A program made the translations under genes and the position numbers. A DNA stretch of 64,000 bases, from the NCBI RefSeq assembly GCF_001280425.1, contig NZ_LIUF01000001.1, forward strand, positions 848,945 to 912,944, in the 5' to 3' direction. The stretch's first letter is position 1. Each line of letters starts with the position of its first letter. Positions 2,702 to 18,499 of this stretch are shown piece after piece. The notes beneath the pieces are model-generated. The model was not told the DNA's origin and made no database searches. It saw only the letters and a list, made by a program, of their open reading frames with translations. This DNA comes from Haloarcula rubripromontorii (lineage in GTDB: Archaea > Halobacteriota > Halobacteria > Halobacteriales > Haloarculaceae).

Positions 2702-5700
2702 ATGGCGACCGCCGAGAACACCGAACTCATCGACCGCTTCGAGGAGTTCTACCGCAACTACTACCGCAACGAAATCGGTGAGCTCGCCCAGAAATACCCC
2801 AACGACCAGAAGTCGCTGTACATCGACTGGGACGACCTCTATCGCTTCGACCCGGACCTGGCCGACGACTACCGCACAAAGCCCGAGCAGATTCAGGAGT
2901 ACGCTGAGGAGGCCCTGCGGCTGTACGACCTCCCGGTCGACGTCTCGCTCGGGCAGGCTCACGTCCGCGTCCGGAACCTCCCCGAATCCGAGGACATCCG
3001 GGACCTGCGCCACGAACACCACGGCAACCTCGTCGCCGTCCAGGGCATCATTCGGAAGGCGACCGACGTGCGGCCGAAGGTTATCGAGGCCGCATTCGAG
3101 TGCCAGCGCTGTGGCACACTCACGCGCATCCCACAGGCTGCCGGTGACTTCCAGGAGCCCCACGAGTGTCAGGGCTGTGAGCGACAGGGGCCGTTCCGGC
3201 TCAACACCGACCAGTCCCAGTTCATCGACGCCCAGAAGCTCCGCGTCCAGGAATCTCCCGAGGGACTGCGCGGCGGGGAGACGCCCCAGTCTATCGACGT
3301 CAACATCGAGGACGACATCACGGGCCACGTCACCGCGGGCGACCACGTCCGCGTGACCGGGGTCCTCAAACTCGACCAGCGGGGGTCGGACAACGAGAAG
3401 TCCCCCATGTTCGACATCTACATGGAGGGCGTCAGCGTCGAAATCGAGGATGAGCAGTTCGAGGACATGGAGATTACCGACGCCGACAAGAAGGAAATCG
3501 TCGAGCTCTCCAACGAATCCGACATCTACGACAAGATGGTCGGCGCTATCGCTCCCTCCATCTACGGCTACGAGAAGGAGAAGCTCGCGATGATGCTCCA
3601 GCTCTTCTCCGGCGTGACCAAAGAGCTTCCTGACGGATCTCGCATACGTGGCGACCTCCATATGTTGCTGATAGGGGACCCTGGTACGGGGAAGTGTGTC
3701 CACGGCGATACCCGCGTAACGCTTGCGGACGGCCGTGACGTTCCGATTCGTGACCTCGTTGAGTCCAACCTTGATGACCCGAAACCGATAGACGACGGGG
3801 TCTGGGACAGCGTCGATTTCGAGGTCCCATCGCTATTGGACGACGGGACGATAGCGCCCCGACGAGCGACAAAGGTCTGGAAGCGCGAGGCACCCGACGT
3901 ACTGTACCGGATTCGGACCGCGACCGGTCGCGAACTCGAAGTCACACCGTCCCATCCGCTGTTCGTCCAGACCGACGGCCGATTCCGGGCGAAACAGGCC
4001 GAAAATCTCGACGAGGGGACGTTCATCGGAGTGCCGCGGTCCGTCCCGACTGCGGGTGACAACGAAATAGATGTAGCGTTCCGAACGTCTGACGCACACA
4101 ACCGAATCGACCTCCAGCTCCCGTCGACGTGGACGACGGACCTCGCCCGTCTCCTCGGATACATCGTCGCAGAGGGATACGTCGAACAGCGAGCGGACAA
4201 CACCGGATTCGTCTCTATCACGAACAACGACGACGAAGTTCTTGACGACGCAACGACGATTCTGGAGTCGCTCAATCTCAACGCGACGATACGTAATCCA
4301 CACGAGGGGAAAGACGCCCGCGAGCTGATGTGTTCCGCTGGCGAATTTGTAAGTTTCCTGGGTTCTCTCGAGGAGTCACTGTTGTCTTCCTCGGAGAGCC
4401 AACGCGTTCCGCGGGAGTTGATGGGTACAAACGACGACGTTACGGCCGCTTTCCTCAAGGGGTACATCGAGGGCGAGGGTCACGTCTCCTCGTCTCAGCG
4501 CGAGATTACGGTGGCTTCGATGAGCGAGCAGTTACTCGCGGACGTTCGAACGATGCTGCTCTCGCTCGGTATTTCGTCACAGATTCAGTCACGACAAAAC
4601 GGAAGCTACCGATTGCGGATTTCGGGGCAGGCGTTCAGCACATACGTCGACCGTGTCGGTTTCGTCACGGAGCGAAAGACGGCGGCCTCCGCCAAGTTCG
4701 ACGGGACAGACGGGAATCCGAATCTCGATGTCGTCCCGGATGTCGGCCACGAGCTTCGCCGCATTCGCGAATCACTCGAACTCACGCAGTCGGACTGCGG
4801 GCTTCCCCGTTCGACGTACCAGCATTACGAACGCGGATCTCGAAACCCAAGCCGTGACAGCCTCGAAACCGTCCTTGACGCATTCGAGGCTCGCCTTTCG
4901 GAACTGAGCGAGTCGGCATCTGACACCGCAGGTGCCATCACAGACGGCGGGGGCCTCGACAGTGTTGCAAACGACGTCGATGCGCTTCGCTCCCTCGTCG
5001 ACGGCGATATCGCCTGGGACAGGGTCGAACGTATCGAGACCGTCGAGTCGGACGAGGAGTGGGTCTACGACCTGGAAATCGAGGGGACGCACAATTACCT
5101 CACCAACGGCGTCGTTTCGCACAACTCCCAGATGCTATCATATATCGAGAACATCGCGCCCCGCTCCGTCTACACCTCCGGCAAGGGGTCGTCGAGCGCG
5201 GGGCTGACCGCCGCGGCCGTGCGCGACGACTTCGGTGACGGCCAGCAGTGGACGCTCGAAGCCGGCGCGCTCGTGCTCGCAGACCAGGGCATCGCCGCCA
5301 TCGACGAACTCGACAAGATGACGCCGGAAGACCGGTCGGCGATGCACGAGGCGCTGGAACAGCAGCGCATCAGCGTCTCCAAGGCCGGAATTAACGCGAC
5401 GCTCAAATCGCGCTGTTCCCTGCTGGGCGCGGCCAACCCGAAGTACGGGCGGTTCGACCAGTACGAGCCCATCGGCGAGCAGATAGACCTCGAACCGGCG
5501 CTCATCTCCCGCTTCGACCTCATCTTCACGGTCACCGACAAGCCCGACGAGGAAGCCGACCGGAACCTCGCCGAGCACATCATCCAGACCAACTACGCCG
5601 GCGAACTCAACACGCATCGGACGCAGAACCCGACCTCGAACTTCAGCGAGGAGGAGGTCGACACGGTCACCGAGGAGGTCGCGCCGACCATCGAACCGGA

Positions 5701-6229
5701 CCTGCTCCGGAAGTACGTCGCCTACGCGAAGCGCAACTGCTTCCCGACGATGACCGAGGATGCGAAATCGCGCATCGAGGACTTCTACGTCGACTTGCGG
5801 CTCAAGGGACAGGACGAAGACGCGCCGGTCCCGGTCACTGCCCGGAAACTGGAGGCGCTGGTCCGACTGGCCGAGGCGTCCGCCCGGATTCGGCTGTCGG
5901 ACACCGTCGACGAGGCCGACGCCGACCGGGCGGTCGACATCGCTCACTACTGCCTGAAAGAAATCGGGGTCGACCCCGAAACCGGCGAGTTCGACGCCGA
6001 TGTGGTCGAGACGGGCCAGTCCAAGACCCAGCGCGACCGCATCCAGAACATCAAGGGCATCATCTCCGACATCGAGGACGAGTACGACGAAGGCGCACCC
6101 GCTGACGTGGTCATCGAGCGTGCGGAGGAGGTCGGCATCGACGAGTCCAAAGCCGAACACGAGATTGACAAACTGAAACAGAAGGGCGAGGTGTACGAGC
6201 CCCGGACGGATCACCTCCGGACGACCTGA
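2702..6229 (+). CDS. mcm: Replicative DNA helicase MCM with an intein in Walker A
   Basis: ATP-driven hexameric 3'-5' helicase of the replication fork. The precursor is 1175 aa; removing the 477-residue intein leaves 698 aa, the usual size of archaeal MCM. The N-terminal domain has an OB fold with a zinc site (CQRC and CQGC, about residues 134-160). The AAA+ core has Walker A GDPGTGK-S interrupted after Lys331, Walker B IDELDK (about 867), a sensor 1 segment GAANPKYG and an arginine-finger motif SRFD. A winged-helix domain is expected at the end (about 1090-1175). Without splicing the P-loop is split, so helicase activity depends on intein removal. It is divergent from the lipoprotein gene and is followed after 2 bases by a small unknown gene. 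Confidence 0.97.
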   Translation: MATAENTELIDRFEEFYRNYYRNEIGELAQKYPNDQKSLYIDWDDLYRFDPDLADDYRTKPEQIQEYAEEALRLYDLPVDVSLGQAHVRVRNLPESEDIRDLRHEHHGNLVAVQGIIRKATDVRPKVIEAAFECQRCGTLTRIPQAAGDFQEPHECQGCERQGPFRLNTDQSQFIDAQKLRVQESPEGLRGGETPQSIDVNIEDDITGHVTAGDHVRVTGVLKLDQRGSDNEKSPMFDIYMEGVSVEIEDEQFEDMEITDADKKEIVELSNESDIYDKMVGAIAPSIYGYEKEKLAMMLQLFSGVTKELPDGSRIRGDLHMLLIGDPGTGKCVHGDTRVTLADGRDVPIRDLVESNLDDPKPIDDGVWDSVDFEVPSLLDDGTIAPRRATKVWKREAPDVLYRIRTATGRELEVTPSHPLFVQTDGRFRAKQAENLDEGTFIGVPRSVPTAGDNEIDVAFRTSDAHNRIDLQLPSTWTTDLARLLGYIVAEGYVEQRADNTGFVSITNNDDEVLDDATTILESLNLNATIRNPHEGKDARELMCSAGEFVSFLGSLEESLLSSSESQRVPRELMGTNDDVTAAFLKGYIEGEGHVSSSQREITVASMSEQLLADVRTMLLSLGISSQIQSRQNGSYRLRISGQAFSTYVDRVGFVTERKTAASAKFDGTDGNPNLDVVPDVGHELRRIRESLELTQSDCGLPRSTYQHYERGSRNPSRDSLETVLDAFEARLSELSESASDTAGAITDGGGLDSVANDVDALRSLVDGDIAWDRVERIETVESDEEWVYDLEIEGTHNYLTNGVVSHNSQMLSYIENIAPRSVYTSGKGSSSAGLTAAAVRDDFGDGQQWTLEAGALVLADQGIAAIDELDKMTPEDRSAMHEALEQQRISVSKAGINATLKSRCSLLGAANPKYGRFDQYEPIGEQIDLEPALISRFDLIFTVTDKPDEEADRNLAEHIIQTNYAGELNTHRTQNPTSNFSEEEVDTVTEEVAPTIEPDLLRKYVAYAKRNCFPTMTEDAKSRIEDFYVDLRLKGQDEDAPVPVTARKLEALVRLAEASARIRLSDTVDEADADRAVDIAHYCLKEIGVDPETGEFDADVVETGQSKTQRDRIQNIKGIISDIEDEYDEGAPADVVIERAEEVGIDESKAEHEIDKLKQKGEVYEPRTDHLRTT
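3695..5125 (+). other. Intein in MCM (self-splicing protein with LAGLIDADG endonuclease and HTH)
   Basis: In-frame insertion of 477 aa, residues 332-808 of the precursor. It begins with Cys332 (block A, CVHGDTRVTLADG) and ends with His807-Asn808, followed by Ser809 as the +1 nucleophile. Block B has TPSH with His418. Two LAGLIDADG dodecapeptides are visible, LLGYIVAEG (484-492) and FLKGYIEGEG (584-593), each ending in an acidic residue, so the homing endonuclease may be active. Between the second motif and the C-terminal splicing block (WVYDLEIEG, from 787) is a helix-turn-helix segment (about 685-735: LRRIRESLELTQSDCGL through STYQHYERGSRNPS) resembling XRE/Cro domains. The site, GDPGTGK^S in the P-loop, is a conserved ATPase position where inteins are known to insert. 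All residues needed for class 1 splicing are present. Confidence 0.95.
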
Positions 6230-6231
6230 CT

Positions 6232-6504
6232 ATGGACCGCATCTCCGCACTCCGCAACATCGAGGAAGCGCTGGCCGAGTTCGAGGCCGGGTCCCGGTCG
6301 CTGGCCGACCTCGAACGGGACGTTCGCGGGACGCTCCGGACCTACGCGACCGAGTTCGAGGGCGACCTGCAGGCCTACCGGGCGAGCGGCGGGGCCGCCG
6401 TTGACGGACTGGTTGTCCTTGCACCGTCCGAGACAGCAGCCCGCGAACGCGTTCAGGACCTCGTCTCGGACGCCGGCGAGTTCACCGTCACGGCCGTCGA
6501 ATAA
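6232..6504 (+). CDS. Conserved small protein of unknown function downstream of mcm
   Basis: Unrecognised acidic 90-aa protein. Its first ATG lies 2 bases after the mcm stop, so it is probably co-transcribed and co-translated with the helicase. The sequence reads as helix-rich in the first half (ISALRNIEEALAEFE, then LADLERDVRGTLRTYATEF) and ends with a short alpha/beta segment. There are no cysteines, membrane segments or nucleotide-binding motifs. Position suggests an accessory link to MCM; that is context only. From memory, genes of this kind also follow mcm in Haloferax. Confidence 0.75.
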   Translation: MDRISALRNIEEALAEFEAGSRSLADLERDVRGTLRTYATEFEGDLQAYRASGGAAVDGLVVLAPSETAARERVQDLVSDAGEFTVTAVE

Positions 6505-6643
6505 GGCGTTTTCTGGGGCCGTAGTTGCTGTCGGTGTCTCCCACAGACCGTGCGCAGTGCTGACTCTCGACTCCAACTGCTCCGCTATCTTTCTCGCCGA
6601 GTTTAATATATATTCACTCTAAAGCACGTTCAATTCAGTAAAA

Positions 6644-6650
6644 TTTTATA
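6644..6650 (+). promoter_or_regulatory. TATA-like box for the unknown-gene/MinD cluster
   Basis: TTTTATA lies 24-30 bases before the GTG at 6674, in an AT-rich stretch (about 6601-6660) that stands out from the GC-rich surroundings. It supports a leaderless transcript beginning at that GTG and sets the cluster apart from mcm as its own transcription unit. Confidence 0.6.
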
Positions 6651-6673
6651 GCAATAATAGCAATGTCTACCCA

Positions 6674-7009
6674 GTGCTACTCGTCGTCACGTACTCCCGG
6701 CCGGCACGCAGAGACTTACGGAACGTCTGTCGTGCCCACGAAGCGTGTGTCGTTCGGCAGTTCGGGAGAGCAGCGTTGTTCTCCGGGACCGAGTTCGGGG
6801 CGTTTCAGGCGCTTCGTCTGCACGAGAAACACGGGCTTGACGTTCAGATCGAGCACGTCGAGCCGTTCGAACCGACGGACGTCCCGAAACACGTTCGGAA
6901 GGCGGCCAAGCGGTACGAGGCACGCGAGGAACCGGCGACGCCCTACGAGCGGTTCGCATCGGGACGTGATCTCCCGGACCCGGACCAACTCCGAGGCGTC
7001 GACCTGTGA
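6674..7009 (+). CDS. Unknown protein, first gene of the MinD cluster
   Basis: 111-aa protein I do not recognise. The GTG start was chosen because a TATA-like box lies 26 bases upstream. The N-terminal half looks like a compact alpha/beta fold (VLLVVTYSRPARRDLRNVC, then RQFGRAALFSGTEFGAF). The middle carries a helix with KHVRKAAKRYEA and the end is rich in Pro and Asp. No catalytic or membrane motif is visible. The stop overlaps the GTG of the next gene (GTGA), so the two are translationally coupled. The locus order mcm - unknown genes - minD - tfb matches my recollection of the minD1 (HVO_0225) region in Haloferax volcanii. Confidence 0.8.
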   Translation: MLLVVTYSRPARRDLRNVCRAHEACVVRQFGRAALFSGTEFGAFQALRLHEKHGLDVQIEHVEPFEPTDVPKHVRKAAKRYEAREEPATPYERFASGRDLPDPDQLRGVDL

Positions 7010-7815
7010 GGCTCCGCGTCGCTGGAACTACTTACACGGGCGCTGTCGTCGACCTCCGAGCCCGAAACGTCGACGGTCAGACCGTCGCCGCAAGCATCCG
7101 CGGCCGGCGGTGCCTTCCCGCTGTGTCCTGTCCGGAACCGCCGGCCGTGTACGCGTACACCGGACACGTCCACCCGTCGATGGGACTCCGAACGCGAACT
7201 GCACTTGCGGCTGCCGCCCGGTCACGGGGATACGAGACGCCACAGGACGACGCTATCGCGGACCGCCGCGCAAAGCTGGCCGAGCTTGAGTGCTCGCCGC
7301 CGGAGCTGCCGGACCCTGTCGATCCGGTCTCGGAGTCGACAATCGACGGCCTGCAGGAAGCGGTCGCTACCCACCGCGGGCGTCTCACCGCTCGGCAGGC
7401 GGTCGGTGCGGACGACGAAGCGGCACAGGCCGCTCTCCGCGACGCGGCAACGGAACTGAGCGAACTGGAGACGCAGCGGGCTGCCGTCAGCGAAACTCGC
7501 GAACTCCGCCGGAGCCGGGCACGCGCCTACCGGGACACACTGGAGGAACAGCGTCGGCTTGCCGACGAACTGGCCAACCTCCGGCGGAGCGCTCGGGCAA
7601 CGCTCGTCGACCGATGTGCCGAGACGTTCGCTCGGGCCATCGACGCCGTTCCGGGGCCAGTTCCGGACAGCCCGTTCGACGCCGACCCAGTAACGGCCGC
7701 TCTGGGCGTACTCCGGTTCGCGAAGACGCCCGCACCGGTCGTCCTCGAAACGGATCGGTTCAGATCGCCGACAGCTGCATCGGACTGTCTCGACGCCCCT
7801 GTCGTTCGTTGCTGA
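7006..7815 (+). CDS. Unknown coiled-coil protein of the MinD cluster
   Basis: 269-aa protein, GTG start overlapping the previous stop by 4 bases. The first 80 residues look globular (AGTTYTGAVVDLRARNVDG, and GHVHPSMGLRTRTALAAAA). Residues about 81-205 are predicted coiled coil (heptad-like runs ADRRAKLAELE and ELSELETQRAAVSETREL). The C-terminal 60 residues are again globular. A long coiled coil beside a ParA/MinD ATPase would suit a partner or scaffold that stimulates or localises the ATPase, but this is inferred from shape and position only. I cannot name the family with certainty. Confidence 0.8.
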   Translation: MRLRVAGTTYTGAVVDLRARNVDGQTVAASIRGRRCLPAVSCPEPPAVYAYTGHVHPSMGLRTRTALAAAARSRGYETPQDDAIADRRAKLAELECSPPELPDPVDPVSESTIDGLQEAVATHRGRLTARQAVGADDEAAQAALRDAATELSELETQRAAVSETRELRRSRARAYRDTLEEQRRLADELANLRRSARATLVDRCAETFARAIDAVPGPVPDSPFDADPVTAALGVLRFAKTPAPVVLETDRFRSPTAASDCLDAPVVRC

Positions 7816-7847
7816 CTTTTAAATCAGAAGGCCAGACCACCGCCCCT

Positions 7848-8615
7848 ATGGTTACCTTCGACTGTCGCGCTGAGCGAGTCGACGGCGTGACGCTCGTCAC
7901 GGCCACTGTCGGCGACATCCCCGAACCGACTCGAATTACTGTTCGGAACCGTCTCGATGGTCCGCTCTGGCCGCCGAGGACGCAAGGCGTTCCTGAGGCC
8001 GGCTGGTCGGAAGATGGGTTCGAGGGAGTCGTGAGGCCGGGAACACACGCGCTCGGGTACGCGACGCCGGCCCTGCCGGCTGACCAGCCGGCGGAACTGG
8101 TGCGTGCTGAGCCGGCACCTGATACTGCGACCGCCGACGAGCGACTCGACTCCGCAGCTGCCGTACTCAGAGAACTGGGCGACCCGTCGCCGCCTGCTGA
8201 CGCTGTGCCAACAGCCGAGCCGGTACACGTACCCCAAACTGCGAGTGCTGGGCCGCCCGACCTCACACCCGAGCAGGACATCGAACCACAGCCAGAGGGA
8301 AGTCATCAGCCAGCCGAATCAGGGACTGCGTCCGGGCACCGTCCGGATCAGCAACTCCCTGACGCGGTCTCGCAGTGGCTCGAAACCGTTGCTCGACGGG
8401 TAGACTGTGCCGAGCGGCTGGCTGAGGCGGAGTCGCTGTCGGCGGCGACAGCTGCGGTTCGTGCGGTAGACGACCTCTCCGGCGTCCGGACGGTCGCGGC
8501 ACGCGGCGATACTGACGAGCAAATGCTCCGGGCGCTGGCCCGGCGGGCCGAACGGCTCGCCGACCGACGAGCGGCCGCCACGGTACCGACCGAAACGCTG
8601 GCCCGGCTGGCATGA
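7848..8615 (+). CDS. Unknown protein with Pro/Glu-rich linker, MinD cluster
   Basis: 255-aa protein I do not recognise. It starts at ATG 7848; its final bases overlap the MinD start by 4 (ATGA). The N-terminal 95 residues look beta-rich (VTFDCRAERVDGVTLVTATV, then PTRITVRNRLDGPLWPP). A low-complexity Pro/Ala/Glu/Gln linker (about 95-170) joins this to a helical C-terminal domain (about 175-255: QQLPDAVSQWLETVARRVDC and later Arg/Ala helices). This two-domain layout with a flexible linker fits an adaptor. The 32-base gap before it could hold its own promoter, but continuous coupling to minD suggests one operon. Confidence 0.8.
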   Translation: MVTFDCRAERVDGVTLVTATVGDIPEPTRITVRNRLDGPLWPPRTQGVPEAGWSEDGFEGVVRPGTHALGYATPALPADQPAELVRAEPAPDTATADERLDSAAAVLRELGDPSPPADAVPTAEPVHVPQTASAGPPDLTPEQDIEPQPEGSHQPAESGTASGHRPDQQLPDAVSQWLETVARRVDCAERLAEAESLSAATAAVRAVDDLSGVRTVAARGDTDEQMLRALARRAERLADRRAAATVPTETLARLA

Positions 8616-9322
8616 TCCTGGCAGTCACCGGCGGCAAGGGCGGCGTCGGCAAGTCGACTGTCGCGTACAATCTCGCGGCGGAACTCGACGAACTTGAACG
8701 GGCCGACAGCAGGGACTCGCTCTCGAACGCGGGGAGCGTCGTCGTTGACGGCGATCTCGGGATGGCGGACCTCCCGTCCAGCCACGGGCCCGACCTGCAC
8801 GACGTTCTCGCCGACCGCGCCGACCCACACGAGGCTGTCCGCGAGGACGGTCCCGTGACTCTCGTCCCGTGCGGACGAACGCTGGCCGGCGCTCGAAGCG
8901 CCGACTTGCAGCCCCTCACAGACGTATTCGCCGCACTGGAGCGGGCCTATCGCTGGGTTATCGTGGATTCGCCAGCCGGCCTGCACGCCGACGTGGGGCT
9001 GCCCCTTGCAGCCGCCGACGCCGCGGTACTCGTTACGACGCCGGAAGGTGCGGCCCTCGCCGACGCGCTCCGGGTTCGGGCGCTGGCCCGCGAACTCGAC
9101 GCCGGACTCTGTCGGGTCGTCCTCAACCGTGCAGGCACAAATCCTGCGACCGAGGCCGTCGCGGACCGGTTCGGTGCGCCGGCCGTCGGTATCCCGGAAA
9201 GTGAACCACTGGCGACGGCACAGGCGCACGGACAGCCGCTTCGAGACACAGCCCCGGACACACCGGCCAAACACTCGCTCGAAGCGCTCGCTGACGCCGT
9301 TTACTCTTGTAGCTCGGTGTAG
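8612..9322 (+). CDS. minD: MinD/ParA-family P-loop ATPase
   Basis: 236-aa cytoplasmic ATPase of the deviant Walker A class. GGKGGVGKS (residues 7-15) is the signature P-loop with the extra Lys; DGDLGMADL is the switch I/A' segment and VIVDSPAGLH the Walker B region. Such proteins dimerise with ATP and position cargo (cell poles, motors, DNA). It lacks an obvious C-terminal amphipathic targeting helix of bacterial MinD, ending in LADAVYSCSSV. The start overlaps the preceding unknown gene, so it belongs to that operon. Its last 22 bases overlap the 3' end of the convergent TFB gene. From memory, H. volcanii has four MinD homologues and the one near mcm/tfb (minD1) has no assigned role. Confidence 0.92.
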   Translation: MILAVTGGKGGVGKSTVAYNLAAELDELERADSRDSLSNAGSVVVDGDLGMADLPSSHGPDLHDVLADRADPHEAVREDGPVTLVPCGRTLAGARSADLQPLTDVFAALERAYRWVIVDSPAGLHADVGLPLAAADAAVLVTTPEGAALADALRVRALARELDAGLCRVVLNRAGTNPATEAVADRFGAPAVGIPESEPLATAQAHGQPLRDTAPDTPAKHSLEALADAVYSCSSV

Positions 9323-10161
9323 GTCCCTCGTAACGTGACCGGCGTTACGTCTGCTGTCTCTGCCGCTTCGGCCTGCGTGAGCGCCACGTCCTGCTCCTGG
9401 GCCGCGGTGTAGAGACACGCCGCCGCGACGCCGGCTGGATTGCGCCCACTGACCAGGCCACGGTCCTGTGCCACGTCGACGAGCTGTTCCGCACGCTGCC
9501 GGACTGCCGTCGGCAACTCAAGCGTCGTTGCAAACCGGGGGACGTACTCGCGTGGGTCAATCGGACCGGTCGGTAACCCGAGTTCTCTGTTTAGGGCGTC
9601 GTAGGCCGCGCGAAGCTCCGCCTGGGTCGCTTTGGCGACAGTACAGAGTTCGTCGACGGTCCGGGCAACGCCCTCGGTCCGGCAGGTGGCGTAGATGGCC
9701 GCGGCTGCGAACCCTTCCAGCGTTCGCCCCTGTAGCAGGGCCTCCTTCTGTGCCGACTCGAACAGCACGCACGCCCGGTCTCTGATTGCGTCTGAGAGCG
9801 CCATCGAACTGATGATACGCCGGATCTCGGTGAAGGCGTATACCTTGTTTCGCTCGCGCTTCGAGCTGATCTGGGCGCGGTTGTGTTCGCGGCGGAGGCG
9901 AGCGAACTGACGGCGTTTGCGCCCTTTCAGCCGAGTCGACCGGCCGATTTTCGTCGAAAGGCCGCGGTCGTGACGGGACCGCGTCAACGGTGCGCCCGTG
10001 CGTGCCCGGTCCGTGTCGTCATCGTCGAACGACCGCCACTCCGGGCCGGGGTCGATGGCGTCCTCGCTGACGACCAGCCCGCAGCTGCCACACACCGATT
10101 CGACGCCCTGCTGTTTGACTGACCCGTTACACTCCGGACATTGTGTTACCGTCGTACTCAT
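9301..10161 (-). CDS. tfb: Transcription initiation factor IIB (TFB)
   Basis: 286-aa general transcription factor that bridges TBP-DNA and RNA polymerase. The N-terminal zinc ribbon is visible (CPEC at 8-11 and CGSC near 26), followed by the B-reader region (LTRSRHDRGLSTKIG) and two cyclin-like repeats (about 100-185 and 195-286). It is shorter than many TFBs because the ribbon and linker are compact. Haloarchaea carry several TFB copies used for different promoter sets; this copy is convergent with the MinD cluster, overlapping by 22 bases. Its promoter is the AT-rich block at 10185-10197. Confidence 0.95.
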   Translation of the reverse strand: MSTTVTQCPECNGSVKQQGVESVCGSCGLVVSEDAIDPGPEWRSFDDDDTDRARTGAPLTRSRHDRGLSTKIGRSTRLKGRKRRQFARLRREHNRAQISSKRERNKVYAFTEIRRIISSMALSDAIRDRACVLFESAQKEALLQGRTLEGFAAAAIYATCRTEGVARTVDELCTVAKATQAELRAAYDALNRELGLPTGPIDPREYVPRFATTLELPTAVRQRAEQLVDVAQDRGLVSGRNPAGVAAACLYTAAQEQDVALTQAEAAETADVTPVTLRGTYTELQE

Positions 10162-10332: not shown

Positions 10333-10827
10333 ATGACGTTGTCGGATATCGCTGCTGGTGTCGAGGTCACGACCCACCAGCGTGACCACGGTGTCGCGGC
10401 TGTCGACGAGACGGGCGCGCCGCTCCCGGAGCGGCTGGCTCCCGTAGCCGACGACCTCCCGTGTTCGGCGACGACAGCGGCGACCGTCGTCGAGACCTAC
10501 GCAGCCGGGCGGAGCGTTGGCGATGCGGGCCGCGCCGCCGGTGTTGCGCCCGTGGTGGCCGCCAAGACGCTTCACCTCGTCGGCGAGCAAGTGTCGCCGG
10601 TCGGCCCACAGGGCCGCGAGATAATCGCCGATTGGCTTGCCGGGGACATCTCCCGCAGCGATGCTATTGCACTCGCTGGCGTGACTGAACAGGAGTTTGC
10701 CCTAGCTGTGTACATCGAGACCCACGAACCGTTGCCCGCGGCCCGCGATGCGGTTGAGGGCGCACTGACGACTGCGGAACGGGACCCGTTAGGAGAGACG
10801 ATGAGCGACATCGGCGAGCTGTTGTGA
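10333..10827 (+). CDS. Haloarchaeal protein of unknown function with HTH-like repeats
   Basis: 164-aa protein, leaderless ATG with a TATA-like ATTAAAT near 10301. Two helix-turn-helix-like stretches can be read: TVVETYAAGRSVGDAGRAAG (about 57-76) and DWLAGDISRSDAIALAGVTE (about 100-120), the second like the start of a DNA-binding repeat, so nucleic acid binding is possible but unproven. The last eight codons (MSDIGELL and stop) form the first unit of a 61-bp tandem repeat that continues downstream. The gene is divergent from tfb, sharing its upstream region. Confidence 0.8.
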   Translation: MTLSDIAAGVEVTTHQRDHGVAAVDETGAPLPERLAPVADDLPCSATTAATVVETYAAGRSVGDAGRAAGVAPVVAAKTLHLVGEQVSPVGPQGREIIADWLAGDISRSDAIALAGVTEQEFALAVYIETHEPLPAARDAVEGALTTAERDPLGETMSDIGELL

Positions 10828-10955
10828 GGATGTGTGAAGTATTCTCTCGGCGAGGTCGGGAGTGAGTGACATCGGCGAGCTGTTGTGAGGGTGTGTGAAG
10901 TGCTTTCTCGGCGAGGTCGGGAGTGAGCGACATCGGCGAGCTGTTGTGCGGGTGT
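10803..10955 (+). repeat. 61-bp tandem repeat, about 2.5 copies, starting inside the 3' end of a gene
   Basis: Units begin at 10803, 10864 and 10925 with GAGCGACATCGGCGAGCTGT or a one-base variant. Copies 1 and 2 differ at only a few positions over the full 61 bases; copy 3 stops matching after about 30 bases. Copy 1 contains the end of the preceding coding region including its stop codon, so each further copy reproduces the codons for the last residues and the stop. The array ends about 70 bases before the next gene. Confidence 0.93.
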
Positions 10956-13673: not shown

Positions 13674-13746
13674 AATTCCGTTTTGCAACCGGCATGCTGC
13701 GGACAACTTCGACATCGCTATGTGCGTCAACCGCTGACAACTCGCT

Positions 13747-14289
13747 ATGAGTGATCCCGTGGACGTGACCGTCGACACCGACGACGAGTCGGAATCGGTC
13801 CGCATCCACGACGACGGGGGCGAGGTCGAAGCCGGTGACGCGACCGTCCGGTTCAGCTTTTCGGGGACTGGCGACACTGACCAGTCTGGCAGTGACGACG
13901 AGCAGTCACCCAACGGCGACGACGACGGTGCGGACCCGCGCCGCATCGCCGCGCTCGATTCGGTGCCCACCGACAGCACGCTCGTGTTCGAAGCGCGCGA
14001 CGGCCGGCGCGGCGTCAACTGCATCCTCCACCGCTCCGGCGACGCCGTCGTTGCCTGGCGGAACTCCTGTCCGCACCAGCCCGAGGTCCCGCTGGACCCG
14101 GGTCGGGGCGCGATTGTCCGCGGTGACCAACTCGTGTGTCACAAGCATGGCGCGCAGTTCGAACCCAAGGACGGCGTCTGTACACACGGTCCATGTGCCG
14201 GTGACGCTCTGGACGGTATCGAGGTCGCAGTACAGGACGGCGACGTGTACCTCACGGACGAGCGCTTCGAGCGGGCTGCCCGGCGCTGA
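13747..14289 (+). CDS. Rieske [2Fe-2S] domain protein
   Basis: 180-aa protein with a ferredoxin-like Rieske fold. The cluster ligands are visible as CPHQPEVPLD (near residue 103) and CHKHGAQFEPKDGVC (near residue 132), giving the Cys-x-His plus Cys-x2-His set. The first 65 residues are acidic and low-complexity. There is no membrane anchor, oxygenase alpha domain or signal peptide, so a soluble electron carrier is likely. No partner oxygenase is adjacent; it stands between two minus-strand genes as a single-gene unit. Confidence 0.9.
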   Translation: MSDPVDVTVDTDDESESVRIHDDGGEVEAGDATVRFSFSGTGDTDQSGSDDEQSPNGDDDGADPRRIAALDSVPTDSTLVFEARDGRRGVNCILHRSGDAVVAWRNSCPHQPEVPLDPGRGAIVRGDQLVCHKHGAQFEPKDGVCTHGPCAGDALDGIEVAVQDGDVYLTDERFERAARR

Positions 14290-14337
14290 CACACGCTGTC
14301 AGAATGTTTTGTGGCAATCATTCAGCGGCCAGCGCCG

Positions 14338-15825
14338 TCAGTCGTCAGCGACGGCTGGTTCGCTGCCGGCCCGTGCGTCGGCGTCGCGCCACGTCCCCCG
14401 AAGGAACCAGGCCGCTGCGAGGCCGGCCGCGAGGACGTTCGAGACAGCGAAGGCCAGCCAGATACCCTGTTCAGCCAGTGAGTACGCGAAGAGGTCGACG
14501 ACCTGCGGGCCGAGCCACCCCGGGACCGTGACCGGGCGAGAGGCGACCCAGGCGACTGGGAGTCGAATGATACCCAGCATGGTAATCGCCAGCGCCGCCG
14601 CGGTGAGGGTCTTGCCGGCCCCGCGGAACCCGCCGGAGTAGGCCCGGACGATGCCGATGAAGCCGAAGGTCGGTGCGACCCACTGGAGGAACTCGGCTCC
14701 GATACGGACGACCTCGGGGTCGTCGCTGAACACGCTGACGACGGCCGGTGCGGCGAAGATAGTGACCACGCCCAGGACGGTGAGGATGGCGAACGACACC
14801 TTCGCGGCGAAATGGTTGGCCGTCGCCGCGCGGTCGGGCCGCTCGGCACCGAGGTTCTGGCCGGTCATCGTCTCGACGCCGCGGTCCATCGCGATGGCCG
14901 GCATGAACACCAGCGAGAACACGCGGATGCCGACGCCGAAGGCCGCGACCACGGTCACGGAGAACGTCCCGACGATGAACAGCATGGCGTTGACCGACAC
15001 GGCGCGCCCGGTGCCTTCAACCGAGGCCGGGATGCCCAGCCTGAGCAGTTTTCGGAGGTACTCCAGATCGGGTGCCATGTCACCGAGATGGATCCGCACG
15101 CCGCGCCGGCCCGACAGCAGGATACCGATGCCGACGACCAGCGCGACGCCACGCGAGAAGATGGTCGCGACGGCCGCGCCGACGACGCCCATCTCGGGGA
15201 ACACCCACCAGCCGAAGATGAGGAACGGGTCGATGACGATGTTCAGGACGACTGTGCCAAACATCACCAGCATCGGCGTGATGGTGTCGCCGGCTCCGCG
15301 CATCAGCGAGATGAATACGAAGAAGCCAAACATCGCCGTCAGCCCGAGTGAGACGACCTGTAGATAGCCTGTCGCGCCCGGGAGTACCTCGCTGGAGGCA
15401 CCCAACAGTGACAGGAAGTCCTCGACGAAAAAGTACCCTGTCGCGCCGAGCAACACGGAGGCCAGCAGCGCGAACGTCACCGTCTGGGAGGCGGCGTACT
15501 CGGCCTCTCGGTGCTCCTCGGCCCCGGTGTGCTGGGCGACCAGTACACTGCCCGCCACCGACAGTCCCATGCCGAGCGAGATGAGCAGGAAGATCATCGG
15601 GAAGGCAAAGGAGATGGCCGCAAGCGCCGTCGTGGAGTACTGGCCCAGCCAGAACGTGTCCGCGAGGTTATACGCCACCTGTAGCAGGTTCGTGATGACG
15701 ATGGGGAAGGAGAGAAACAGTAGCGGCTTGCCGATGTCGCCACTGGTCAGGTCCAACTCATCCTGTCCCCTGAACAGGTTCCCGAGTCGCGCACCCAGCC
15801 GAGCCAGTTTCTGCCGGACGCTCAC
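14338..15825 (-). CDS. MATE family multidrug efflux transporter (TetR operon)
   Basis: 495-aa integral membrane protein with about 12 hydrophobic segments in two pseudo-repeats (FPIVITNLLQVAYNLADTFW in the first; a second half beginning near LRLGIPASVEG). MATE proteins export drugs or metabolites using Na+ or H+ gradients. The GTG start at 15825 overlaps the stop of the upstream TetR gene by 4 bases (GTGA), which identifies the start and shows translational coupling; a longer frame exists but would run deep into the regulator. The TetR protein very likely controls it. Confidence 0.92.
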   Translation of the reverse strand: MSVRQKLARLGARLGNLFRGQDELDLTSGDIGKPLLFLSFPIVITNLLQVAYNLADTFWLGQYSTTALAAISFAFPMIFLLISLGMGLSVAGSVLVAQHTGAEEHREAEYAASQTVTFALLASVLLGATGYFFVEDFLSLLGASSEVLPGATGYLQVVSLGLTAMFGFFVFISLMRGAGDTITPMLVMFGTVVLNIVIDPFLIFGWWVFPEMGVVGAAVATIFSRGVALVVGIGILLSGRRGVRIHLGDMAPDLEYLRKLLRLGIPASVEGTGRAVSVNAMLFIVGTFSVTVVAAFGVGIRVFSLVFMPAIAMDRGVETMTGQNLGAERPDRAATANHFAAKVSFAILTVLGVVTIFAAPAVVSVFSDDPEVVRIGAEFLQWVAPTFGFIGIVRAYSGGFRGAGKTLTAAALAITMLGIIRLPVAWVASRPVTVPGWLGPQVVDLFAYSLAEQGIWLAFAVSNVLAAGLAAAWFLRGTWRDADARAGSEPAVADD

Positions 15826-16418
15826 GCTGTGACCCCCTGCTGGCCGTCCAGAAGATGCGTCTCGACATACTCGGTGAGCATCCGTCTGGTACACTCGACC
15901 GGGCGACCGGTCGTGATGCGCTCGGTCGCTGCTCCGGTCAGCACGGTGACGATGAATCGGGCAGTTTCCTCGGCGTCGAGGTCTGATTTGAACGTCCCGT
16001 CATCGATGCCGTCTTCGAGAATCGCTTCGAGTTCATCGATAAGGTACTCGTCGAATTTTGTCAGCCGCTCACGAAAGCCGGGTTCGTATGGTGCGTGGGC
16101 ACGGATTTCGAGAATCGCCGTCCCGAACTCCTCGCTCCCGTCGTCCGGCTTATCAAGCACAGAGTCAATGAGCGAAAGCAGGCGTGCGTGTGGGGTTTCG
16201 CCCTCCGGGTCTTCGATCCGGTCGACAAACCCCTCATAGAGGTATTCGAGAAACGCACAGAGGAGGTCGTGCTTGCTGTCGTAGTGGTAGTGGAGGGCGG
16301 CCTTGCTCTTGTCCGACTCGTCGGCGATATCCTGCATCGTCAGATCCGCATAGCCGTGCGTACACAGCGCACGGTAGGTCGCATCCATAATATCGTCGGC
16401 CGTGTCGCCGTCGTTCAT
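15822..16418 (-). CDS. TetR/AcrR family transcriptional regulator
   Basis: 198-aa repressor. The N-terminal HTH reads MDATYRALCTHGYADLTMQDIAD followed by KAALHYHYDSKHDLL (about residues 11-52), a typical TetR signature; the remaining helices form the ligand pocket and dimer interface. It is the first gene of an operon with a MATE exporter. A 14-bp inverted repeat at 16433-16446, 15 bases before its ATG, is the likely operator, so it should repress itself and the pump until a substrate binds. Confidence 0.95.
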   Translation of the reverse strand: MNDGDTADDIMDATYRALCTHGYADLTMQDIADESDKSKAALHYHYDSKHDLLCAFLEYLYEGFVDRIEDPEGETPHARLLSLIDSVLDKPDDGSEEFGTAILEIRAHAPYEPGFRERLTKFDEYLIDELEAILEDGIDDGTFKSDLDAEETARFIVTVLTGAATERITTGRPVECTRRMLTEYVETHLLDGQQGVTA

Positions 16419-16432
16419 TACGTGAAACTAAC

Positions 16433-16446
16433 TGACTGGTCAGTCA
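16433..16446. promoter_or_regulatory. Probable TetR operator
   Basis: TGACTG-GT-CAGTCA: two perfect 6-base arms around a 2-base centre, placed 15-28 bases upstream of the TetR start, over the expected TATA box. The TGAC...GTCA outer bases are like many TetR/QacR-type operators. Binding is inferred. Confidence 0.75.
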
Positions 16447-16558
16447 AGTATTCGTCGGTACCATTCGGGAGTGGGTTCGCGTGCCACGCTACCCAGAGAT
16501 CAGACTCGCGGGAGCCGTCGCTCCGGGAGCGCTCAGAACGACTGCAGAACGGCGCTCG

Positions 16559-17017
16559 TTACTCTTTCAGATCGAGGTCGAACTGCTCGTGTTCACTGGC
16601 GGCGTTGAGCACGACGGAGGTGTTCGACTCCCTGATGTCCGGGTCGGTGAGCAGCTCCTTTATCTGGGCGTTCATGCCGTCGGTATCGGTGAACTTCCCG
16701 ACCGCAATGATGTCGTAGTCGCCGGTGACCTCGTACACCGAGATCATCTGCTTGTGCTCCTTGAGGTCCTCGGTGACTGCCGGGAGTGACGACCCCTCAA
16801 CCTTGAGTTGGATGATGGCCGTCACGTCGTAGCCGAGCTTGTCGTAATCAACCTTGGGCGTGTATCCGTTGATGATCCCCTCGTCCTCAAGATCGGAGAG
16901 GTGGTTTGAGACGGTCGTTACCGACACGTCGAGGTCTTCTCCGAGGCTTCGGAGGCTGGCACGGCCGTCACCCAGAAGTGCATTCACTAACTCACGGTCG
17001 AGATTTTCGTACGTCAT
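16559..17017 (-). CDS. lrp: Lrp/AsnC family transcriptional regulator next to glnA
   Basis: 152-aa DNA-binding protein with an N-terminal HTH ([20 protein letters not shown] then [17 protein letters not shown], about residues 11-48) and a C-terminal RAM ligand-binding domain (about 65-145, with [16 protein letters not shown]). The family senses amino acids and regulates metabolism. It is divergent from glutamine synthetase, with 126 bases between the starts. From memory, this lrp-glnA arrangement recurs in haloarchaea, so a role in nitrogen control is likely. Confidence 0.93.
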
Positions 17018-17025
17018 TACATTGG

Positions 17026-17039
17026 GGGACGCCCCCCAG
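17026..17039. promoter_or_regulatory. GC inverted repeat at the lrp transcription start
   Basis: GGGGGACGCCCCCC can pair over five bases on each side of a short centre. It lies 9-22 bases before the lrp ATG, between its TATA-like TTCTAATC (about 17041-17048) and the start codon, where a bound regulator would block initiation. Autoregulation by Lrp is a guess from position. Confidence 0.4.
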
Positions 17040-17143
17040 GGATTAGAATTTTACGAATGTCCAAATGTAAGCGAAAGCGTCGAAACCTTTGCGCAAATCA
17101 GCAGGGTTTTAGTAGTAGCACCGCTCCTATCGGGTGTCCAAAG

Positions 17144-18499
17144 ATGACAAGCGAACTTTCAGAGGCGGCGGAGGAGGTACTCGACGAGATCGAAGAGAAG
17201 AACGTCGACTTCCTTCGACTCCAGTTTACCGACATCCTCGGCACGATCAAGAACGTCTCGATCACAGCCGACCAGGCAGAGAAAGCGTTCACAGAGGGAA
17301 TCTACTTCGACGGGTCCTCGATCAACGGCTTCGTCCGGATTCAGGAGTCCGACATGCGCCTGGACCCGGACCCGTCGACGTTCTCCGTGCTCCCGTGGAG
17401 AGAGAACGTCGAAGGCGGTTCCAGTGCCCGCCTCATTTGTGATGTCATCGACACCTCGACCGGCAAGCCGTTCTCCGGCGACCCGCGTGGCGTCCTGAAG
17501 CGTGCCATCGAGCGCGCTAACGACATGGGCTATACGGTCAACGCCGCACCCGAGCCCGAGTTCTTCCTGTTCGAGGAAGACGAAGAGGGTCGCGCGACCA
17601 CCAAGACCAACGACGCCGGTGGCTACTTCGACCTCGCGCCGAAGGACCTCGCGTCCGACGTGCGCCGTGACATCATCTACGGCCTCGAAGACATGGGCTT
17701 CGACATCGAAGCCTCCCACCACGAGGTCGCACAGGGTCAGCACGAGATCAACTTCACCTACGACGACGCCCTGACAACGGCCGACAACGTCGCTACCTTC
17801 CGTTCTGTCGTCCGCGCCATCGCGGCCGAACACGACCTGCACGCGACGTTCATGCCAAAGCCCATCCCGAAGATCAACGGCTCCGGCATGCACACGCACA
17901 TCTCGCTGTTCACCGAGGACGGCGAGAACGCGTTCCACGACGAGGACGACGAGTTCAACCTCTCCGAGACGGCAAAGAGCTTCACCGCCGGTATCCTCGA
18001 ACACGCGCCGGCCATCACCGCGGTCACTAACCCGACGGTGAACTCCTACAAGCGTCTGGTCCCGGGCTACGAAGCCCCGGTCTACGTCGCCTGGTCGGAC
18101 CGCAACCGCTCGGCGCTCATCCGCAAGCCGGCCGCCCGCACGCCGGCCGCCAGCCGTATCGAGGCTCGCTTCCCCGACCCGTCGTGTAACCCGTACCTCG
18201 CCTTCGCGGCGCTCATTCACGCCGGGCTCGACGGCATCGAGCGAGATCTCGAGTGTGAGGACCCGGTTCGCGAGAACATCTACGACTTCGACGAAGAGAA
18301 ACGCGAGGAGTACGGCATCACCACGCTGCCGGAGAACCTCGGCGAAGCCGTCGACGAACTCGAAAAGGACGAGGTCATCAGCGACGCGCTCGGCGAGCAC
18401 GTCTTCGAGAACTTCGTCGAGGCCAAGCGTCAGGAACACAAGGAGTACCTGGTCGACGTCTCCGACTGGGAACTCGACCGCTACCTCGAGAAGTTCTAA
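17144..18499 (+). CDS. glnA: Glutamine synthetase, type I
   Basis: ATP-dependent ligase making glutamine from glutamate and ammonium; 451 aa, forming a cytoplasmic dodecamer. The beta-grasp N-domain begins near [18 protein letters not shown]; catalytic-domain motifs include [30 protein letters not shown] and [20 protein letters not shown]. No NRYP-type adenylylation tyrosine signature is seen near the C-terminus, consistent with the GlnA type not controlled by adenylylation. A TATA-like TTTTAG near 17107 lies about 35 bases upstream of the ATG, which fits a short leader. A longer open frame from 17057 crosses that box and is rejected. Confidence 0.97.

Follow-up and report, generated by a model that had tools for sequence, protein, structure and literature searches.

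A MinD1-type ATPase and a DUF7857 protein encoded between mcm and tfb probably form a module of a haloarchaeal type IV pilus-like system

Four genes on the forward strand lie between mcm and the TFIIB gene tfb in the 64,000-nucleotide stretch of Haloarcula rubripromontorii DNA that was analysed here, which we call the window. We refer to them as A (DUF7855, PF25253; 111 amino acids, 6674-7009, +), B (DUF7856, PF25254; 269 amino acids, 7006-7815, +), C (DUF7857, PF25256; 255 amino acids, 7848-8615, +) and D (a MinD1-type ParA/MinD ATPase matching PF10609 and PF01656; 236 amino acids, 8612-9322, +). Our main conclusion, to which we give a probability of roughly 0.6, is that C and D constitute a ParA/MinD module dedicated to one haloarchaeal type IV pilus-like system, that with a TadA/CpaF-type ATPase and a HerA-like ATPase, and that A and B are separate from it. 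An earlier note, made from this DNA sequence alone, had placed four genes between mcm and tfb, joined by GTGA or ATGA overlaps or a short gap, and the coordinates bear this out. It had also described the products of A, B and C as unrecognised; all three belong to Pfam families of unknown function, with matches far above the gathering cut-offs (A, 8.8e-49, 165 bits against 27; B, 1.9e-64, 218 bits against 30.2; C, 8.1e-33, 114 bits against 27).

The stretch from A to D is made of two independent two-gene units, A-B and C-D, and not of one. In the window, A and B share 4 nt (GTGA), C and D share 4 nt (ATGA), and a gap of 32 nt separates B from C. These junctions recur in named haloarchaeal loci, 80 of which were gathered with A as the query: a short overlap joins A to B in 61/77 and a short (4-nt) one joins C to D in 66/70, with a median B-C spacing of 33 nt. 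A TATA-like element, scored 19-36 nt before the gene start, precedes A in 59 of 80 distinct upstream regions (AT content of 0.90 at -30 to -26) and C in 46 of 56, while none was detected before B (0/62 upstream regions) or D (0/68). In the window, the promoter of the A-B unit (6630..6673, +), placed by sequence and conservation, is an AT-rich stretch, TTTAATATATATTC ... AATTTTATAG, with its TATA-like element ~30 nt before A; the same two kinds of evidence place a TATA box, CTTTTAAAT (about 7816-7825, +), ~27 nt upstream of the start codon (ATG) of C. The paired overlaps, together with TATA-like elements before A and C only, fit separate leaderless transcripts for A-B and for C-D. The earlier note had correctly pointed to an AT-rich promoter before A; the second one, before C, was not part of it. 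A TATA box is also found upstream of C-D pairs that have relocated (3/3 read: L175, L176 and L178) and of two copies at pilus loci.

C and D are inherited as a pair. A direct search for D in 45 chosen genomes found it directly after C in 30, while the other 15 had neither gene, so that the two agree in 45/45; in two of the 30, C fell under the Pfam threshold and was recognised by its position. In all 333 loci where both genes were found (some genomes being counted more than once), C stands immediately before D. The pair has also moved as one. Five genomes of one Halorubrum-like genus (G254, G228, G224, G109 and G137) carry C-D together away from mcm, and in the two of them for which the mcm locus was retrieved as well, A-B is still behind mcm. 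C-D occurs in the absence of A-B in many Natrialbaceae-like genomes, and G302 and G379 have kept A-B, with C-D gone or reduced to a 98-amino-acid MinD1 remnant. The proposal of an ATPase with dedicated partners is thereby upheld for C, which is co-inherited with D, has moved with it and overlaps it in most loci, and falls for A and B. The earlier note had suggested asking whether all four genes co-occur and stay adjacent, and had counted frequent separation from minD against its proposal: C-D do stay together, and A-B are the genes found apart.

Two apparent gene fusions were rejected. A C-D fusion in a Haloarcula-type locus (L021, genome G002) results from frameshifts that give a common frame, with the true tail of C and the Walker A motif in other frames, and a B-D fusion in L102 was judged spurious, C being found between the two in another frame. 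The frameshifts in L021 break both C and D, reflecting either sequencing error or decay.

As C-D is usually distant from the pilus genes, we turned to presence and absence to assess the link between them. Across a class-wide sample of 391 genomes, C and DUF7311, a family of the pilus cluster, are both present in 277, C only in 11, DUF7311 only in 13 and neither in 90 (phi 0.84). The TadA-type ATPase of the system was found in 23/23 tested genomes with C and in 3/31 without it. D and HerA, compared in 200 genomes searched for HerA that were partly chosen by their C status, are both present in 118 and both absent in 67, with D only in 6 and HerA only in 9 (phi 0.84). This association holds within genera (Cochran-Mantel-Haenszel P = 8e-10, 12 informative genera), and when the data were shuffled within genera the observed agreement was reached in 0 of 20000 trials. 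For B, used as a control, phi with HerA is 0.23 (P = 0.19), and a comparison within the pilus system, HerA against DUF7311, gives 0.81; therefore, D tracks the pilus system as closely as the system's own parts track each other, and B does not. Since C-D is inherited, moved and lost with one pilus machine, it probably serves to place or control the pilus, not chromosomes.

The pilus cluster encodes a HerA-like ATPase, DUF7310 (a coiled coil), DUF7311, a type II/IV secretion ATPase, a PilC-like protein, the pilin-like DUF7382 and DUF7283-7286, the PilC-like identity and the pilin nature of its proteins being assigned by position and sequence. The secretion ATPase (T2SSE, 1.4e-18), found in one cluster with pilin-like genes (families DUF7283, DUF7382 and DUF7311, and also DUF7284-7286 and DUF7310, are matched there), is TadA/CpaF-like (TIGR03819, 5e-42; CpaF structures, 1e-21). 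C-D lies within ~10 kb of genes of this cluster in six of the wider regions read, four of them Natrialbaceae-like and two Haloarculaceae-like (G387, G153, G057, G093, G032 and G121). We rejected adjacency as a general rule, the HerA gene usually being far away. Elsewhere, the window's own genome included, the cluster is itself split, with HerA-DUF7382 at one site and DUF7310-ATPase-PilC at another (DUF7311 and DUF7283 in several).

Two further observations concern the surroundings of this cluster. In L180 (10690-11982, -), a gene beside the pilus cluster encodes a further ATPase of the ParA/MinD type, with the Walker A sequence GGCGKT and a fused C-terminal, KaiC-like DUF7125 region. The same fused ATPase is present at L181, L184, L186, L188 and L312; it may be another pilus regulator. 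The pilus ATPase cluster also adjoins mre11-rad50-like genes in the window's own genome (likeness judged by the start of their sequences only) and cetZ in G091 (L311, ~13746-17691; L313, 11923-13053).

D has the Walker A motif GKGGVGKST (KGGVGKST with the signature lysine), in which K9 is invariant in 56 homologues, and a switch II motif, D-x-P-A-G, whose residues D119, P121, A122 and G123 are invariant or nearly so in the same set. Against TIGR01969 (archaeal MinD) it scores 6.9e-36 and 123.7 bits, under the curated cut-off of 201.75, and its closest solved structures are those of archaeal MinD from Archaeoglobus and Pyrococcus (1hyq, 1g3q and 1ion), followed by FlhG/FleN. The protein starts at the Walker A region and has no N-terminal receiver-like domain, and the 221-position profile of the homologues spans the ATPase only. 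Its last 18 residues vary in sequence and charge, with a hydrophobic moment of 0.25-0.56 in the 8 sequences checked, and these 8 show no clear amphipathic C-terminal helix. A ParB-type partner gene was not found beside D, C matching DUF7857 only, and neither D nor HerA had a match in the plasmid collection. By its position, D probably corresponds to MinD1 (HVO_0225) of Haloferax; the gene order around minD1 that the earlier note described for this genus is present in four Haloferax species (L231, L238, L282 and L285). MinD1 is without a described function in Haloferax; of its paralogues there, MinD4, which oscillates, contributes to the placement of the motility machinery, and MinD2 has effects on shape and motility. 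Growth, shape and swimming, not pili, were the traits recorded for the quadruple minD mutant, and the archaellum microscopy in the MinD2 paper used strains without pilB3 (PMC11588486, PMC11621097). A published pilus assay of a minD1 mutant was not found in the literature searched.

C is modelled by AlphaFold (mean pLDDT 85) as an Ig-like beta sandwich (residues 1-90), a disordered linker and a C-terminal helical domain (172-255). A fold search with this model returned generic Ig-like or CBM-like matches only (best Z 6.9), with no assignable relative, and Pfam searches gave no match besides DUF7857, and thus no DNA-binding domain and no ParB match. Hydropathy analysis revealed no membrane span in either C or D, and we found no mention of DUF7857 in the literature searched.

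ATP causes ParA/MinD ATPases to dimerise, and a partner switches them. We infer a mechanism along these lines, in which D would dimerise when ATP-bound and C, made from the same transcript as D and with coupled translation, would bind D by one of its domains. The other domain of C, across the flexible linker, would bind the pilus base or the HerA/TadA-type motors, so that the switch in D would place the pilus base or license its assembly. The portion of Makarova et al. 2016 (PMC4858521) drawn on here anticipates that clade 2 euryarchaeal pili are served by FleN/MinD ATPases, usually encoded as stand-alone genes, and names neither MinD1 nor DUF7857 among its pilus systems.

The closest known counterpart of D is TadZ/CpaE of bacterial Tad pili, likewise a ParA/MinD ATPase tied to a pilus with a TadA/CpaF-type ATPase. 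As a ubiquitous component of Tad pili, CpaE/TadZ localises the secretin CpaC, and it has been modelled around the CpaF motor (PMC13170226). D differs from it in having neither a receiver-like N-terminal domain nor a clear C-terminal amphipathic helix, in its coupling to DUF7857, and in usually being encoded away from the pilus genes, beside which it stands in a minority of the genomes examined. In our best reading, D would work like TadZ/CpaE but without the receiver domain, and what is new here is a MinD-type pilus ATPase with a new partner family, recognised by co-inheritance. FlhG/FleN is similar in being a MinD-type ATPase that serves a surface appendage; FlhG works with FlhF on bacterial flagella, whereas this locus has no FlhF-type partner. 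Archaeal MinD proteins, including MinD1-MinD4 of Haloferax, are structural neighbours of D, which is set apart here by its assignment to a pilus system. The linked machine itself, presumably one of the Haloferax PilB systems, resembles the PilB4/subclade 4F systems of Makarova et al. 2016; in the part of that survey used here (PMC4858521), subclade 4F pili often have a secretion ATPase with an extra Cys-rich N-terminal domain and have a coiled-coil cytoplasmic protein, and PilB4, with extra N- and C-terminal domains, is Halobacteria-specific.

The widely conserved order mcm-DUF7854-A-B-C-D-tfb, with a ParA/MinD ATPase in it, would suit the idea, put forward in the earlier note, that all four genes are one system positioning or segregating DNA or replication complexes, with mcm and tfb as functional neighbours. 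We consider this highly improbable and mostly refuted. A-B and C-D are two coupled pairs with separate promoters, losses and locations; some genomes carry C-D away from mcm and others have lost C-D but not A-B, many genomes have neither A nor B, and agreement with the pilus system is far closer for D than for B. In addition, no change in growth or division is reported for Haloferax lacking all four minD genes (PMC11588486). The replication role suggested by mcm is not supported, because C-D can leave the mcm locus and tracks the type IV pilus-like system instead.

It is also conceivable that C-D and the pilus system are not directly linked and are simply accessory genes that ecological circumstances removed from the same lineages. 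Such an origin of the association would agree with losses concentrated in particular lineages, with the wholesale loss of both in some genera and with the status-based choice of part of the 200 genomes. We nevertheless think it unlikely, as the association persists inside the 12 informative genera and is not shown by B, an equally accessory neighbour; moreover, some genomes of the Natrialbaceae-like and Haloarculaceae-like groups have C-D next to the pilus cluster, and Natronomonas has lost D and HerA together from otherwise retained systems. A third possibility accepts the link to the pilus and holds that D controls its expression or assembly, not its position, as a FleN/FlhG-type regulator acting with tfb. 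FlhG/FleN structures are indeed the next best for D after archaeal MinD, tfb adjoins D, and TFIIB homologues are given as the commonest regulators of archaeal pilus loci in the consulted portion of Makarova et al. 2016 (PMC4858521). However, G302 and G379, which have lost C-D and the pilus genes, still carry tfb at the locus, and C has no DNA-binding domain match, and we regard regulation with tfb as quite unlikely.

Several results weigh against a pilus-dedicated C-D module. In most genomes, including the window's own, C-D stands by mcm and tfb, distant from the pilus genes. There are 15 discordant genomes in the comparison of D with HerA, in which D status comes from a direct search in ~75 genomes and from C in the others. 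Natrialbaceae-like C consists of the first domain and a short tail, without the C-terminal helices, and thus the two-ended adaptor drawn above cannot be universal. The coevolution analysis of C and D by mean-field direct coupling analysis was underpowered (226 pairs, Neff 128) and yielded no clear contacts, with noise-like inter-protein scores mixed with intra-protein ones. Furthermore, C is kept without D in Natronomonas (L257, L284, L275 and G085, G086, G322, G331, G370, G405), so that C must have some D-independent role or be decaying there.

HerA is also missing from the Natronomonas-like genomes where it was searched, while DUF7311 is kept in most, and in G338 C is present, D is missing and the HerA match is broken by stops. 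This pattern indicates that the tie between MinD1 and HerA is tighter than that between C and HerA (phi 0.84 against 0.69). Given that Natronomonas lacks both MinD1 and HerA but retains DUF7857 and, in most genomes, DUF7311, we speculate that MinD1 and the HerA-like ATPase might form a sub-module of the pilus. As HerA-like enzymes pump DNA, the pilus might then be a chromosomally encoded machine for the uptake or exchange of DNA, whose DNA motor would be recruited or gated by MinD1 through DUF7857; we hold this extended proposal to be very unlikely as it stands.

If C-D does serve the pilus, archaeal MinD paralogues would look like a set of switches, each for a different surface machine, MinD4 for the motility machinery and MinD1 for a pilus. 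The orphan ATPase MinD1 and DUF7857 become a testable pair in Haloferax volcanii, and our results caution against inferring function from the mcm-tfb neighbourhood.

A-B is a separate unit that stays behind mcm-DUF7854. Both genes are present in 237 of the 391 genomes, A only in 9 and B only in 1 (phi 0.95), and many genomes are without both; for B and C in the same sample, phi is 0.62. A, which shows the highest conservation among the four proteins (69% mean column identity), is predicted to adopt a ferredoxin-like beta-alpha-beta-beta-alpha-beta fold with appended helices (AlphaFold, pLDDT 96), for which a fold search gave generic ferredoxin-like matches only (best Z 7.4) and no functional relative. 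B is predicted from its sequence to contain a coiled coil. Of the shapes guessed in the earlier note, those of A, as a compact alpha/beta protein, and of C, as a beta domain, linker and helices, agree with the models, while the coiled coil of B stays at the level of that prediction. Sequence profiles of A, B and C gave no convincing match in the PDB. The best matches of A among the named loci are from Haloarcula species, at up to 95% identity.

The order from mcm to tfb is unbroken in 55 of the 80 named loci, and contig ends cut most of the others. The conserved flanking genes are given here as context: mcm (2702..6229, +), which contains an intein and was assigned by family match and gene order; DUF7854 (6232..6504, +; Pfam, 1.6e-35), which stays with mcm-A-B; and the convergent tfb (9301..10161, -; PF00382, 8.2e-42), which overlaps the 3' end of D, the two 3' ends sharing 22 bp (9301-9322). 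A DUF7858 gene, recognised by its Pfam match, is a further neighbour on the tfb side; DUF7854 and DUF7858 are, like DUF7855-DUF7857, Pfam families of unknown function. The mcm intein spans protein residues ~339-808 and has LAGLIDADG domains, with a helix-turn-helix domain inserted at residues 685-735. Finally, a 61-bp tandem repeat of 2.5 copies (10802-10955) covers the end of the DUF7858 gene and continues up to the start region of the glutamate-cysteine ligase-like gene downstream.

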